From NCBI RefSeq assembly GCF_002075885.1, contig NZ_MDET01000001.1, positions 62,001-126,000 on the forward strand: 64,000 bases of DNA, read 5' to 3'. Made by a program: the position numbers and the translations under genes. Under the pieces are notes generated by a model. It saw nothing but the letters and a program-made list of their open reading frames with translations, ran no database searches and was not told the DNA's origin. Each line of letters starts with the position of its first letter. Positions within the stretch are counted from its first letter, which is position 1. Source of the DNA: Manganibacter manganicus (lineage in GTDB: Bacteria > Pseudomonadota > Alphaproteobacteria > Rhizobiales > Rhizobiaceae). Positions 35,968 through 42,127 of this stretch are shown one piece after another.

Positions 35968-36932
35968 CCGGAGGTGGCGAGGCGCTTGTTGCAAAACTCG
36001 GCGACAGGCTTGCCGGCCTGCGCGGGCGCATCACGCCCAACGCCGAGATGGACAAGATCACCTGGTTTCGTGCCGGCGGCATGGCCGATGCGCTGTTCCA
36101 GCCCGCCGACGAGGAAGATCTCGCCGCCTTCCTGAAGGCGGTGCCGCGCGACATTCCCCTGATGGTGGTCGGCATCGGCTCCAACCTTCTGGTGCGCGAC
36201 GGCGGCATTCCCGGTTTCGTGATACGGCTTTCGGCCAAAGGGTTCGGCGAGGCGCGGGCGCTTTCCGACACTCGCATCCAGGCCGGCGCGGCAACGCCTG
36301 ACAAGCGGGTTGCAGCGGCGGCACTGGAGGCCGGCATCGGCGGTTTTCATTTCTATCACGGCATTCCCGGCGCCATCGGCGGGGCGCTGCGTATGAATGC
36401 AGGCGCCAATGGCGTCGAGACTCGCGAGCGCGTGGTCGAGGTGCGGGCGCTCGACCGTGAGGGCCGACTGCATGTGCTGTCCAATGCGGATATGGGCTAT
36501 GCCTACCGCCATTCCTCCGTGCCCGCGGATTTCATTTTCACGTCCGCCGTGCTGGAAGGCTACGGGCAAGACCGCGAGACGATCCGCGCCGCCATGGATG
36601 GCGTGCAGCATCACCGCGAGACGGTGCAGCCGATCCGCGAGAAGACCGGTGGCTCGACCTTCAAGAATCCCGAAGGCACGTCCGCCTGGAAGGAAATCGA
36701 CAAGGCTGGTTGTCGTGGCCTGATGGTGGGCGGGGCGCAGATGTCGCCCATGCACTGCAATTTCATGATCAACACCGGTGCGGCCACCGGTTACGAACTC
36801 GAATATCTCGGCGAGACGGTACGCGCGCGCGTGCTGGAAAACTCCGGCATCCGGCTCCATTGGGAGATCAAGCGCATTGGCGATTTTCGCCCCGGCCATG
36901 AGGTACAGGAGTTTCTCGGGCAGTTGCTGTAG
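35964..36932 (+). CDS. murB: UDP-N-acetylenolpyruvoylglucosamine reductase
   Basis: A 322-residue FAD enzyme that reduces UDP-GlcNAc-enolpyruvate to UDP-MurNAc. [13 protein letters not shown], the FAD-binding [13 protein letters not shown], the [16 protein letters not shown] loop, and the catalytic serine in GGSTFKNP near residue 232 fit the family. It starts inside the murC stop (ATGA). A 236-base gap with clustered GANTC sites follows before ddlB. Confidence 0.95.
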
Positions 36933-36981
36933 TGGTTAGCCGCCTTTCCGGCGAATTATTTGCCCTGTTTTCACGGAAAGT

Positions 36982-37119
36982 GAATCTCCGCGAATCCTAG
37001 GCCCTTGTCAGGGAATCAACTCTCTGATTCTTTGGGCATAGAGCGTTTCCTGATTTGAGTCGTTCGACGCGTGACCGCGTTTTCCGCTTGGGGGGTAGCC
37101 TGCCGGGAGACTCGGACTC
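36982..37119. promoter_or_regulatory. cluster of seven GANTC (CcrM methylation) sites upstream of ddlB
   Basis: GANTC sites start at 36982, 36992, 37013, 37026, 37057, 37109 and 37115. About one per 256 bases would be expected by chance, fewer in GC-rich DNA. CcrM adenine methylation of GANTC in promoters ties division genes to replication in alphaproteobacteria. The cluster fills the only sizeable gap inside the dcw cluster, so a promoter for ddlB-ftsQ-ftsA-ftsZ is likely here; its -35 and -10 elements are not clear. Confidence 0.6.
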
Positions 37120-37168
37120 AATATCAGGGAGACATGTCGCGACCCGCCGCAAGAGGGGATGACGGGGT

Positions 37169-38095
37169 ATGAAAAACAAGCACGTTGCCGTTCTCATGGG
37201 TGGTTTTTCTTCCGAACGGCCCGTGTCGCTCTCGTCGGGGAATGCATGCGCTGCCGCCCTTGAGGATGTTGGCTATAAAGTGACGAGGGTCGATGTCGGG
37301 CGTCATATCGGACCGGTGCTTCTCGCGCTCAAGCCTGACGTCTGCTTCAATGCCTTGCATGGTCCCTTTGGCGAGGACGGGACTATCCAGGGAATCCTCG
37401 AATATCTGGCTGCTCCCTACACGCATTCGGGCGTGCTGGCTTCGGCCCTGGCGATGAACAAGGATCTGGCCAAGACGGTGGCTTCCGCCGCTGGCATTCC
37501 GGTCGCGGAATCGAAGCTCATCAACCGCTTTGCGGTGCGCGACCAGCATCCGATGCCGCCGCCCTACGTGGTGAAGCCGGTCAATGAAGGATCGAGTTTC
37601 GGCGTGGTGATCGTCAAGGAGGATCAGTCGCATCCGCCACAGATCATCAGCTCGACCGAGTGGAAATATGGCGAGCGCGTCATGGTCGAGCGCTATGTTC
37701 ATGGACGTGAACTGACCTGCGCCGTGATGGGCGACGTCGCGCTCGGCGTTACCGAAATCATTCCGACCGGCCATTCCTTCTACGATTATGATTCGAAATA
37801 TGTGCCGGGCGGCTCAAAACACGAATGCCCGGCAAAAATTTCACCGAATATTTACCAAAAAATACAGACACTGGCACTCAAGGCTCATCAAGCTATCGGT
37901 TGCCGGGGCGTCTCCCGGTCGGACTTCCGCTACGACGACCGCCATTCGGAAAATGGCGAACTTGTCTGGCTGGAGATCAATACGCAACCTGGCATGACGC
38001 CGACGTCATTGGTCCCTGAGATCGCAGCCCAGGCGGGGCATTCGTTCGGTGATCTGTTGAGTTGGTTGGTGGAGGACGCTTCGTGTCTGCGTTGA
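37169..38095 (+). CDS. ddlB: D-alanine:D-alanine ligase
   Basis: A 308-residue ATP-grasp enzyme that makes the D-Ala-D-Ala dipeptide used by Mur[21 protein letters not shown] at the N-terminus, [16 protein letters not shown], the ATP-grasp loop [12 protein letters not shown] and the C-terminal [17 protein letters not shown] are clear. It is the first gene after the GANTC-rich gap and overlaps ftsQ by 13 bases. Confidence 0.96.
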
Positions 38096-39021
38096 GGTGG
38101 AGCCAGAACAGGAGTGGCGCGGCAAGGCTGGCGCTGTTCGGTCTGCCGCTTTCGCTTGACCGTTTCGTGCTGCCGCGCTGGCTGCGCCGGCCGGTGCGTC
38201 TCTTCGCCCGTCTCAATGACGGTGAGTTCCAGGCGCCGCCTTTTTCGGCGACCGTCCTTTCGGCGGTGCTGCTTGCTTCCAGTTCCATTTACGGCGGCTA
38301 TCTCGGCGGCCATCTCGACGGTTTCGTGCAGGGCGTGACCGCGCGCACCGGCTTTGCCGTCGATCAGATCAAGGTCGTCGGCAACCAGCGTACCTCGGAG
38401 ATCGACGTGCTCGGCGCGCTGGGTCTCGATGGTTGGACGTCGCTGATCGGTTTCGATGTGGGGCAGGCGAGGGAACGCGTCGCGCAACTGCCCTGGGTCG
38501 AGCGGGCGGCTGTGCGCAAGGTCTATCCGCATACGCTGGAAGTGAAGATCGCCGAGCGCGCGCCGTTCGCGCTGTTGCAGCAGGGCTCCCGGCTCGACGT
38601 GATCGAGCGCTCGGGCCGGGTCATCGTGCCCTATTCGGGCGGCAAGGACGCGCTTCTGCCGTTGCTGGTCGGTTCCGACGCGGCGGCGCCGGCGCCTGAG
38701 TTTCTCGCCGAGATCGACAGATATCCCGACTTCGCGTCGCGGATCAAAGCCTACATCCGCGTTGGGGGGCGCCGCTGGGATCTGCGGCTGGAAAACGGCG
38801 TCACGGTGAAATTGCCGGAGGAGGACGAAGCACAGGCCATCGCCGACATCGTGCGCCTGGAGCATGAAAAAGGGCTTCTGGAGCGCGATATCGTCACCGT
38901 GGACATGCGCATCTCCAACCGGCTGATTGTTGAACTGACGCCGGACGGGGTGAAAGCCCGGCAGACCGCGCTCAAGGAAGCGGAAAAATCTGTCAAGCGC
39001 AGGGCGGAGGCGAGGATATGA
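38083..39021 (+). CDS. ftsQ: cell division protein FtsQ
   Basis: A 312-residue bitopic divisome protein. A basic N-terminal cytoplasmic part (about 50 residues), a transmembrane helix near residues 55-75, a POTRA domain beginning at [17 protein letters not shown], then the beta domain with [21 protein letters not shown]-like sequence. It links FtsL and FtsB to the rest of the divisome. It starts with GTG at 38083, six bases after a GGAGGA site inside the end of ddlB, and overlaps ftsA by ATGA. Confidence 0.93.
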
Positions 39022-40325
39022 GCTGGCTGAGCGGGTACGGCGATCTTTCCATGCGCCGCTCCGGCGTGTTGACGGTGCTCGATGTCGGGTCGAGCAAAGT
39101 GTGCTGCGTTGTCGCGCGATTGAAGCCATGCGAAGACGGCAAGCTGTTGCGCGGGCGCTCTCATCAGACGCGTGTGATCGGTATCGGCCACCAGAAGTCG
39201 CAGGGGGTGAAATCCGGCGTCGTCATCGATCTCGACCGCGCCGAGCAGGCCATCCGGCTCGCCGTGGATGCGGCCGAACGGATGGCGGGACTGACGGTCG
39301 ATTCACTCTTCGTCAACATGACGGCGGGACGGCTGAAGAGTCAGTCGTTTTCGGCCACCATCAACCTCGGCGGGCACGAGGTCGACGAGGCCGACATCAA
39401 GCGGGTTCTCGGTGCGGGCGCCAAACAGGCGCTCAAATCCGAGCGCGAGGTCGTTCATTCGCTGCCGGTCGGTTTTTCGCTCGATGCCGAGCGTGGCGTG
39501 CGCGACCCGCGCGGCATGGTGGGCGAGACACTCGGCGTGGACATGCATGTGCTGACCGCCGATGCCGCGCCGCTGCGCAATCTCGAACTGGCCATCAACC
39601 GTTCGCACCTTTCGGTCGAGCGCATGGTTTCGACGCCTTATGCCAGCGGTCTTGCGGCGCTGGTCGACGACGAGTTGGAAATGGGCGCCGCCTGCATCGA
39701 CATGGGCGGTGGAACGACGACAATCTCCATCTTTGCCGAGGGCCGGTTCGTTCATGGCGACTCCATTCCCGTCGGCGGCAACCATGTGACGCTGGATCTG
39801 GCCAAGGGGCTTTCGACGACGCTGGACGCCGCCGAACGGCTCAAGGTCATGCACGGTTCGGCGCTGCCGGGCAGCGCCGACGACCGCGACCTCATCAGCA
39901 TCCAGCCGATCGGCGAAGAGGGCGAGACGCCTTTGCAGGTGCCGCGTGCGGTGATGACGCGCATCGTGCGCGCCCGTATCGACGAGACGCTGGAGATGTT
40001 GCGCGAGCGCATCGGCAAATCCGGCTATGGCAATGTCGTTGGCCGGCGCATCGTCCTGACCGGCGGCGCCAGCCAGCTTTCGGGCCTGCCGGAAGCGGCA
40101 AGGCGCATTCTCGGACGTAATGTGCGCGTCGGCCGGCCGCTCGGCGTGGCCGGATTGCCGGAAGCGGCCAAGGGGCCGGCCTTCTCGGCGGCGGTCGGGC
40201 TTTTGATTTATCCGCAAATGGCGAGTTTCGAGAGCCATGTTGCGCAAGGAGCTTCCCGTTTCAGGATGACGGGGACAGGTGGGAAACTGCATCGCATGAG
40301 TCAGTGGTTGAGAGACAGTTTTTAG
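39018..40325 (+). CDS. ftsA: cell division protein FtsA
   Basis: A 435-residue actin-like ATPase that tethers FtsZ to the membrane. VLDVGSSKVCC (phosphate 1), CIDMGGGTTTISIF (phosphate 2), IVLTGGASQLSGLPE (adenosine) and a C-terminal amphipathic helix (MSQWLRDSF) for membrane binding are all visible. It is coupled to ftsQ by ATGA; ftsZ follows after 77 bases. Confidence 0.96.
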   Translation: MSWLSGYGDLSMRRSGVLTVLDVGSSKVCCVVARLKPCEDGKLLRGRSHQTRVIGIGHQKSQGVKSGVVIDLDRAEQAIRLAVDAAERMAGLTVDSLFVNMTAGRLKSQSFSATINLGGHEVDEADIKRVLGAGAKQALKSEREVVHSLPVGFSLDAERGVRDPRGMVGETLGVDMHVLTADAAPLRNLELAINRSHLSVERMVSTPYASGLAALVDDELEMGAACIDMGGGTTTISIFAEGRFVHGDSIPVGGNHVTLDLAKGLSTTLDAAERLKVMHGSALPGSADDRDLISIQPIGEEGETPLQVPRAVMTRIVRARIDETLEMLRERIGKSGYGNVVGRRIVLTGGASQLSGLPEAARRILGRNVRVGRPLGVAGLPEAAKGPAFSAAVGLLIYPQMASFESHVAQGASRFRMTGTGGKLHRMSQWLRDSF

Positions 40326-40402: not shown

Positions 40403-42127
40403 ATGACCATCAATCTGCAAAAGCCGGACATTACCGAGCTGAAGCCACGCATCACCGTTTTCGGTGTGGGAGGCGGTGGCGGCAACGCGGTCAACAACAT
40501 GATCACCGCGGGCTTGCGCGGCGTCGAGTTCGTGGTGGCGAACACCGATGCCCAGGCGCTGACCACGTCGAAGGCGGAGCGCCTGATCCAGCTCGGCGCG
40601 CATGTCACCGAGGGGCTGGGCGCCGGTTCGCAGCCGGAAGTCGGCCGCGCGGCTGCCGAGGAATGCCTGGATGAGATCGTCGACCACCTGACCCACACCC
40701 ATATGTGCTTCGTCACCGCCGGCATGGGCGGCGGCACCGGCACGGGGGCCGCACCGGTGGTCGCCCGCGCTGCGCGCGAAAAGGGCATTCTGACCGTCGG
40801 CGTCGTTACCAAGCCGTTCCATTTCGAAGGCCAGCGCCGCATGAAGACGGCGGATCTGGGCATCGAGGAATTGCAGAAATGCGTCGACACCCTGATCGTC
40901 ATTCCCAACCAGAACCTGTTCCGGCTGGCCAATGACAAGACGACCTTCGCCGACGCCTTCGCGATGGCCGATCAGGTGCTCTATTCGGGTGTTGCCTGCA
41001 TCACCGACCTGATGGTCAAGGAAGGCCTCATCAATCTCGATTTCGCCGACGTCCGTTCGGTCATGCGCGAGATGGGCAAGGCGATGATGGGAACCGGCGA
41101 GGCATCGGGCGAGGGCCGCGCGATGGCCGCCGCAGAGGCCGCGATCGCCAACCCGCTGCTCGACGAGACCTCGATGAAGGGCGCCAAGGGCTTGCTGATC
41201 TCGATCACCGGCGGGCGCGACCTGACGCTGTTCGAGGTGGACGAGGCGGCGACCCGCATCCGCGAGGAGGTCGATCAGGACGCCAACATCATTCTGGGTG
41301 CTACCTTCGACGAGGAACTGGAAGGCGTGATCCGCGTGTCGGTCGTGGCCACCGGCATCGACAAGTCGGCCGCCGACATGGTTGCCGCGCCGATCGCCAT
41401 TCGCCCGGCGCAGGCCAAGGCAGCGGTTGCGCCGCGTCCGGCTGCGGCCGAGGGCCGCCAACCCGCCGCCGCAGTGGTGCAACCGGCAACCGAGCCGGTC
41501 CGGGCCGACCCCGTCGCCGAAGCGATCCAGCAGGCCGAGGCCAACGCCGCGGCCATGAGCCGGCAGCCGTCGCAAACGCGGCCGGCAGCTGCTGCTTCGA
41601 CTGACGATTTCCGCCCGCACAGCAGGCTGTTCCAGTCGCCGCCGCCACCGCAGCCGGACCTTCGCCATGTGCCGCTGCAACAGCAGGCGCCCCAGCCGGC
41701 CCAGCCCGCGCCGGTGCAGGCTGCACCGCAGATCCGCGACGTGCAGCAGGCGCAACCGGTCCAGCAGGCGCCGCAGCGCATGCCGCGTGTCGAAGATTTC
41801 CCGCCGGTCGTTCGCGCCGAGGTCGAAGCCAAGACGCATCCGATCGACCATGAGGATCGCGGCCCGATGGGACTCCTGAAGCGCCTGACCAACGGCCTGA
41901 CGCGCCGCGAGGAAGAGCCGGCGCGCCTGCAGCCCGCCCAGCCGCGCGAGCCGAAACTGCGCCAGGCCGCGCCGGAGACGCGGCGTCTCGCCAGCCAGGA
42001 CGCGCAGCTTTACGCGCCGCGCCGTGGCCAGCTTGACGATCACGGCCGCCTGGCGGTACCGACTCAGCGCGCGCATGAGGAGGATCAGCTCGAGATTCCG
42101 GCCTTCCTGCGCCGCCAGGCCAACTGA
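40403..42127 (+). CDS. ftsZ: cell division GTPase FtsZ, long-linker alphaproteobacterial type
   Basis: A 574-residue tubulin-like GTPase that forms the Z ring. The GTP loop [12 protein letters not shown] (about 107-118) and the catalytic loop [11 protein letters not shown] are present. After the folded core (about 1-320) comes a proline-, glutamine- and alanine-rich linker of roughly 240 residues, far longer than in E. coli (383 in all) and usual for this class. The conserved C-terminal peptide [10 protein letters not shown] binds FtsA and other partners. It has its own purine-rich leader (AGGACGAGGATT) and ends at a terminator. Confidence 0.97.

Follow-up and report, generated by a model that had tools for sequence, protein, structure and literature searches.

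Does the DNA ahead of ddl in Manganibacter manganicus hold a promoter whose activity follows CcrM methylation? The question is raised by seven GANTC sites lying within 138 bp between murB and ddl, in a window of 64,000 bp (the whole stretch analysed; contig NZ_MDET01000001.1, positions 62,001 to 126,000 of the forward strand). The initial annotation had interpreted these sites as a methylation-sensitive switch for the ftsQAZ transcript, possibly recognised by a GcrA-like factor. All seven sites were recovered at the starts reported there (Table 1).

Table 1. Window coordinates of the murB-ddl gap, its GANTC sites and predicted promoter elements, and the genes that follow
Feature	Position	Strand	Remarks
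murB-ddl intergenic region with GANTC cluster	36933..37168	+	236 bp; murB stop 36932, ddl ATG 37169
GANTC site 1	36982..36986	.	-58 from predicted start; kept in 75/85 deduplicated gaps
GANTC site 2	36992..36996	.	-48; kept in 76/85; all four N letters occur
Predicted -35 element CTTGTCA	37004..37010	+	C precedes TTG in 75/80 cores; TTG fixed by the search
GANTC site 3	37013..37017	.	-27, inside the -35/-10 spacer; kept in 84/85
Conserved spacer CAACTCTCT	37017..37025	+	nearly invariant
GANTC site 4, GATTC	37026..37030	.	predicted extended -10 (-14 to -10); 85/85
Predicted transcription start, A	37040..37040	+	A in 58/80 cores; the first T of the -35 TTG lies 35 bp upstream
GANTC site 5, TGAGTCG (YGAKTCK)	37057..37061	.	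+18; 85/85
GANTC site 6, YGAKTCK on minus strand	37109..37113	.	+70; kept in 62/85
GANTC site 7	37115..37119	.	+76; kept in 79/85
ddl (D-alanine--D-alanine ligase), first gene after the cluster	37169..38095	+	NF002378, 395 bits, above cut-off
ftsQ, start codon uncertain	38062..39021	+	weak sub-cut-off FtsQ model matches; placed between ddl and ftsA
ftsA	39018..40325	+	TIGR01174, 349 bits, above cut-off
ftsZ with alphaproteobacterial C-terminal extension	40403..42127	+	TIGR00065 and TIGR03483 above cut-off

The GANTC cluster at the head of ddl-ftsQ-ftsA

The genes are arranged as mraY-murD-ftsW-murG-murC-murB-gap-ddl-ftsQ-ftsA-ftsZ-lpxC, where mraY, murD, ftsW, murG, murC and lpxC are named from their translations. 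The cluster stands at the head of ddl-ftsQ-ftsA. Its description as the only sizeable gap in the dcw cluster was nearly right: murB and ddl are 236 bp apart and ftsA and ftsZ only 77 bp, and the 190 bp between ftsZ and the longest lpxC open reading frame contain no GANTC. A weak terminator-like hairpin with a T-rich tail is located just 3' of murB (36950-36964) and could separate ddl from upstream transcription. When the own genome was searched with the gap, only the locus itself matched well (next E 0.53) and a plasmid search was also empty; the gap is thus single-copy in this genome, which rules out a dispersed repeat of the REP or MITE type.

GANTC is avoided in the window, with 112 sites observed against 304.5 expected from dinucleotide shuffles, and elsewhere in it no 138-bp stretch starting at a site holds more than two. 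The density ranking suggested by the initial annotation was run on 1,652,792 bases (34% of the own genome, window included) and places the cluster first at 138 bp, with 7 sites followed by 5, 5 and 5. Similar density in many unrelated regions, which had been named as the finding that would make the cluster ordinary, is limited in these 1.65 Mb to a single tie at 236 bp (7 and 7, at L365:11477). The genome background amounts to 1.81 GANTC per kb, or 0.24 expected per 138 bp, and is exceeded about 29-fold by the cluster (Poisson P for at least seven sites approximately 8e-9 per placed stretch). The earlier estimate of half a site by chance is a flat-composition figure and as such generous.

The phrase 'ftsQAZ transcript' proved too strong, because ftsZ starts 3.2 kb past the start of ddl and may own a promoter; control of ftsZ by the ddl-upstream cluster is uncertain. 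Averaged over 21 genomes, there are 7.7 GANTC in the 400 bp before ddl (19.2 per kb), 1.71 per kb in the body of ddl-ftsQ-ftsA, and 1.1 sites in the 300 bp before ftsZ, where 18 of the 21 have at least one, mostly near -95. In the window a lone GAGTC occurs at 40298-40302, within the 3' end of ftsA.

The conserved gap and its promoter-like core

Ranked by Ddl protein, the named relatives are led by Mesorhizobium. The gap DNA itself matches 89 of 150 relatives at E<=0.01, all falling within the 90 same-genus genomes (own included); the single same-genus genome without a match is 86% complete. For the comparison with homologous gaps, which the initial annotation had also put forward, 168 loci (L020-L187) were used. 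After removal of 34 in which no MurB end could be identified (many being of Rhizobium type) 134 were left, of which 111 passed a ddl identity of at least 82% and a length below 700; deduplication, before which some genomes occurred in both of the collections drawn upon, yielded 85 gaps, including those of close neighbour genera. Here the individual sites are kept in 62 to 85 of the 85 gaps, and six of the seven in at least 75. The number of GANTC per gap ranges from 4 to 11 (8 in 41 of 85), and conservation at the sites is 0.96 for the specified GANTC bases, 0.92 for the N and 0.72 for the flanks.

Part of the cluster is embedded in a promoter-like core with a fixed layout: CTTGYCA, a 15-bp spacer between the TTGNNN hexamer and GATTC, and a conserved A 10 bp further on. 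In 104 loci the pattern TTGNNN-N15-GANTC gives 80 matches, against 6-20 at spacers of 13, 14, 16 and 17, and further GANTC are mostly found 29-31 bp downstream of the core GANTC (57 matches). The same spacing peak is seen in a second set of 80 loci (56 against 0-13; control zone 1). TTG-N15-GATTC is present in 102 of 165 loci, leaving 80 cores after deduplication; as the cores were selected for GATTC, its invariance among them is by construction. The CTCT in front of GATTC is nearly fixed (61, 69, 67 and 71 of 71 in a 71-core subset), TG falls at the extended -10 position, and GATTC spans -14 to -10. In many Rhizobium-type cores site 3 is missing. In a scan with GATTC masked, the 63 top-scoring of 129 loci, which exceed the control maximum of 4.4, all carry GATTC, a result that is partly circular given that the matrix was trained on GATTC-bearing cores. 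If transcription starts at the predicted A, GANTC would lie at -27, -14 and +18, within about -40 to +40 of the start.

A strict sigma-70 consensus scan returned no promoter on the plus strand, alongside the conserved -35-like CTTGYCA. The CtrA box TTAA-N7-TTAA is absent, with no TTAA anywhere in 36933-37168. The sequence CAACTCTCTGATTC has one exact copy in the own genome, by which a shared operator elsewhere was ruled out; with up to two mismatches 9 matches are obtained (locus included), against 5 for a reversed-pattern control. Likewise, 854 kb of the own genome searched for TTGNNN-N15-GATTC gave no preferred spacing away from this locus; the pattern is hence not a visible promoter class there, and a general class of this form was rejected. 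The gap is a real, conserved and family-specific promoter-like element. The N base and CAACTCTCT come close to GANTC in conservation, so that the DNA is probably read by something more than methylation.

Distribution across the family

Similar tendencies are observed in 80 family genomes from 79 genera, chosen from places without a prior locus. Summed over these genomes, the GANTC counts per 100-bp bin upstream of ddl are 97, 122, 56 and 24, followed by 4-14. The 300 bp before ddl contain 275 sites (shuffle mean 108, maximum 133) and the zone 500-1600 bp upstream only 112 against 418 by shuffling, amounting to a 9.0-fold higher density close to ddl; the other 15 of 16 palindromes of the form XYNYX reach at most 2.33-fold. 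In 50 of the 80 genomes at least three GANTC fall into one 138-bp stretch no more than 400 bp from ddl (in the control slice none reaches three).

Outside the family the picture changes. The 27 best-matching non-family genomes, taken from 75 that gave a match and belonging to 19 other families of the order, lack both cluster and core and have 11 GANTC in all within the same 300 bp. In about half of eight non-family sequences the murB-like reading ends, by eye, a few bases from ddl. Gap and cluster therefore look as if they had been acquired at the level of the family.

Of the 80 family genomes, 49 carry the core and average 4.7 GANTC in 300 bp; the 31 without it average 1.5, the background being 0.38. 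It follows that division does not need the core. Among loci L139-L187 it is found in 17 of 49, for instance in Phyllobacterium calauticae, Shinella kummerowiae and Sinorhizobium medicae; it is absent in one Agrobacterium (L185; 3 GANTC) and in R. johnstonii 3841 (L162), which we take to be a close relative of R. leguminosarum. Three of five small-genome members (1.1-1.9 Mb) have the core and two lack it (L307 and L308). The data do not support that cores disappeared because CcrM was lost: a CcrM homologue is found in 149 of 151 family genomes. In five Rhizobium-type loci (L246, L260, L263, L265 and L287) TTAACGAAAGTAAAC followed by TTAACC, which is CtrA-box-like, lies between the core position and ddl.

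CcrM, GcrA and alternative explanations

Homologues of both proteins that would be needed are encoded in the own genome. The CcrM homologue (L228, 379 aa) scores 232 bits with PF01555, above cut-off, and 646 bits with NF050803, below the 830 cut-off of that Caulobacter model; the GcrA homologue scores 200 bits with PF07750 (cut-off 26.9) and 156 bits with NF050816, under the 280 cut-off. Sites activated by Caulobacter GcrA are given as TGATTCG or more broadly YGAKTCK (PMC7987155, citing Haakonsen 2015), and the accessible text of the same paper reports no such extended preference for B. subvibrioides GcrA. In the gap, YGAKTCK is matched at 37026 (TGATTCT), at 37057 (TGAGTCG) and, on the minus strand, at 37109; the other four sites do not match. 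The core GATTC meets the motif in 53 of 80 cores and the downstream site in 67 of the 69 cores having one (41 TGAGTCG, 20 TGATTCG), the fraction among background GANTC being 0.14. In Brucella, GcrA ChIP peaks are described as 4.4-4.7-fold enriched in GANTC and GcrA depletion as impairing division (PMC6813329, accessible text).

The methylation-switch and GcrA interpretation of the initial annotation is partly supported. The exceptional and GANTC-specific density, the conserved sites, the promoter-like core, the CcrM and GcrA homologues and the YGAKTCK matches make a methylation-sensitive reading of the cluster well supported at the level of sequence, and methylation control of the promoter-like element is likely. 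Specifically, we think there is a good chance, at roughly two in three, that the gap is a promoter heading ddl-ftsQ-ftsA(-ftsZ) whose activity depends on CcrM methylation of its built-in GANTC. Sigma-70 RNA polymerase would then start at about 37040, CcrM would methylate the sites late in the cycle and fork passage would leave them hemimethylated, while GcrA on the YGAKTCK sites at -14 and +18 might help the polymerase to open a promoter with a poor -10. Methylation could activate, which is the case for ftsZ of Caulobacter, or the promoter could be released when full methylation ends, for which gcrA of Agrobacterium is the model. Both precedents would fit the anatomy of the gap; because of the YGAKTCK match we slightly favour GcrA-assisted activation.

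The first precedent is formed by the CcrM-activated ftsZ and mipZ promoters of Caulobacter crescentus (PMC3708114, accessible text), with which the gap would share a division promoter with GANTC near -35/-10, a CcrM homologue being present; the published results suggest that the ftsZ promoter is least active when unmethylated and most active when fully methylated. There, however, one conserved CGACTC is found in the ftsZ promoter itself, whereas the gap has seven sites ahead of ddl and 3.3-3.4 kb before ftsZ, among them GATTC in the predicted -10 and TGAGTCG at +18. The second is the Agrobacterium tumefaciens gcrA promoter PG, from a related rhizobial-type bacterium, which has a similar density (6 GANTC in 250 bp) and was shown to be methylation-sensitive, methylation lowering its activity even in E. 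coli (PMC11514494, accessible text). What it drives is a regulator rather than a division operon. With the GcrA-activated promoters of Caulobacter (PMC7987155) the gap shares the extended motif at -14 and +18, here as a sequence match.

The essentiality of CcrM in rhizobia and related bacteria still awaits an explanation. A direct link to division has been set aside in print because ftsZ promoters of the order seldom carry GANTC, or because ftsZ of A. tumefaciens has one site and hardly responds. GANTC is reported as not frequent in Rhizobiales ftsZ/mipZ promoters (Gonzalez and Collier 2013, PMC3708114), A. tumefaciens ftsZ has one GANTC within 200 bp and is hardly changed by CcrM depletion, with no significant drop in complex medium (PMC11514494), and no GANTC enrichment is reported for the cell-cycle promoters of E. 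meliloti taken together (PMC8725594), in each case according to the accessible text. As far as that text goes, the statements on rarity refer to the ftsZ promoter proper and not to a site 3.3 kb upstream, and no mention of the region before ddl was found in PMC3708114 or PMC11514494. Nor was a description of the cluster found in the titles, abstracts and accessible passages on GANTC, CcrM or GcrA and division genes. The present analysis finds a strongly conserved GANTC promoter-like element heading the ddl-fts genes, outside the stretch covered by published statements. The patchy absence of the core within the family provides natural controls for a direct test: species with the core are predicted to show methylation-dependent ddl-ftsQA transcription, and coreless species are not.

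A bolder and in our opinion unlikely extension is a family-specific replication-fork timer, in which a CcrM site is fused to the -10 of ddl-ftsQ-ftsA(-ftsZ) and phased with a GcrA site some three helical turns away, so that divisome synthesis would read recent replication. GANTC is reported to be nearly fully methylated early in Ensifer symbiotic differentiation and in R. leguminosarum bacteroids (PMC8725594 and PMC8709438, accessible text). If the timer were true, it might be speculated that such near-full methylation locks the switch and helps to stop division, though R. johnstonii 3841 is among the genomes without the core.

Alternatively, the conserved block might be the operator of another DNA-binding protein, or an atypical sigma-factor promoter containing GATTC/GAATC, on which methylation would have little effect. 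Hardly any variation is seen at the N positions and in the spacer CAACTCTCT, GATTC at site 4 and GAGTC at site 5 occur in 85 of 85 gaps, and MucR is described as binding and shielding GANTC sites in alphaproteobacteria (PMC5172544, accessible text). Nonetheless, sites 1, 2, 3 and 7 stay GANTC in some sequences despite a changed N (with several N letters at 2, 3 and 7), GANTC is enriched where other palindromes are not, the extra sites from -58 to +76 share by eye no single longer motif, and as CAACTCTCTGATTC is unique in the genome no regulon is visible. We therefore rate this explanation as rather improbable.

It might also be argued that the downstream half encodes a 5' leader with RNA structure, its GANTC being a by-product of a stem: TTGAGTC (37055-37061) can pair with GACTCAA (37115-37121), the stem is present in the predicted fold, pairing is possible in 75-84 of the 85 sequences at each of seven inner positions, and 2 sequences have both bases changed at one of the six outer pairs. 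No compensatory change is seen at any of the seven inner pairs, however, on which ground the RNA stem was rejected. Moreover, the left arm is invariant and variation is confined to the right arm, just 39-70 of 85 sequences can form the six outer pairs, the fold z-score is only -1.48 and sites 1-4 are left unexplained. A known structured RNA family was ruled out, as a search of 36800-37300 gave no Rfam match at E up to 1. Altogether, a leader of this kind is very improbable.

Least credible of all is that the cluster represents the tail of ordinary intergenic GANTC enrichment, which averages more than 1.5-fold between genes in alphaproteobacteria (PMC3973325, accessible text) and could point to the equally populated 236 bp of L365 (7 sites), but which is contradicted by the roughly 29-fold excess over background, the first rank at 138 bp in 1.65 Mb, the position-by-position conservation in 85 gaps, the peak in 80 family genomes and the lack of GANTC in the 190-bp gap after ftsZ.

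Dense GANTC clusters elsewhere in the same genome include cell-cycle and replication genes, but not exclusively. Among the next densest is the region upstream of ctrA (L224:5940, 5 sites; CtrA NF045991, 424 bits), and the repB-repC gap of a repABC replicon (L221:2399-2540, own genome C16) has 4 GANTC, the published Agrobacterium counterpart having three. Control by CcrM/GcrA has been published for ctrA in Caulobacter and for repABC in Agrobacterium (PMC4287350 and PMC11514494, accessible text). The 250 bp upstream of the own gcrA and ccrM contain three and one GANTC, respectively, and the dense stretch at L224:10600 is inside an open reading frame. The ctrA-upstream cluster (L224:5724-6040, own genome C29) includes TTGCGT-N14-GATTC, which resembles the ddl core. 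Several clusters with up to 7 sites in 236 bp extend over about 5 kb at L365:11153-16386 (own genome C23) and adjoin an open reading frame that, judged from its translation, reads like a transfer-type ATPase; this region might represent a mobile island with a composition of its own. Finally, five GANTC in 138 bp (L371:9), likewise among the next densest, lie near a RepB-like open reading frame, named from its translation only, at L371:1-1100 (own genome C59), which is possibly a second repABC unit.
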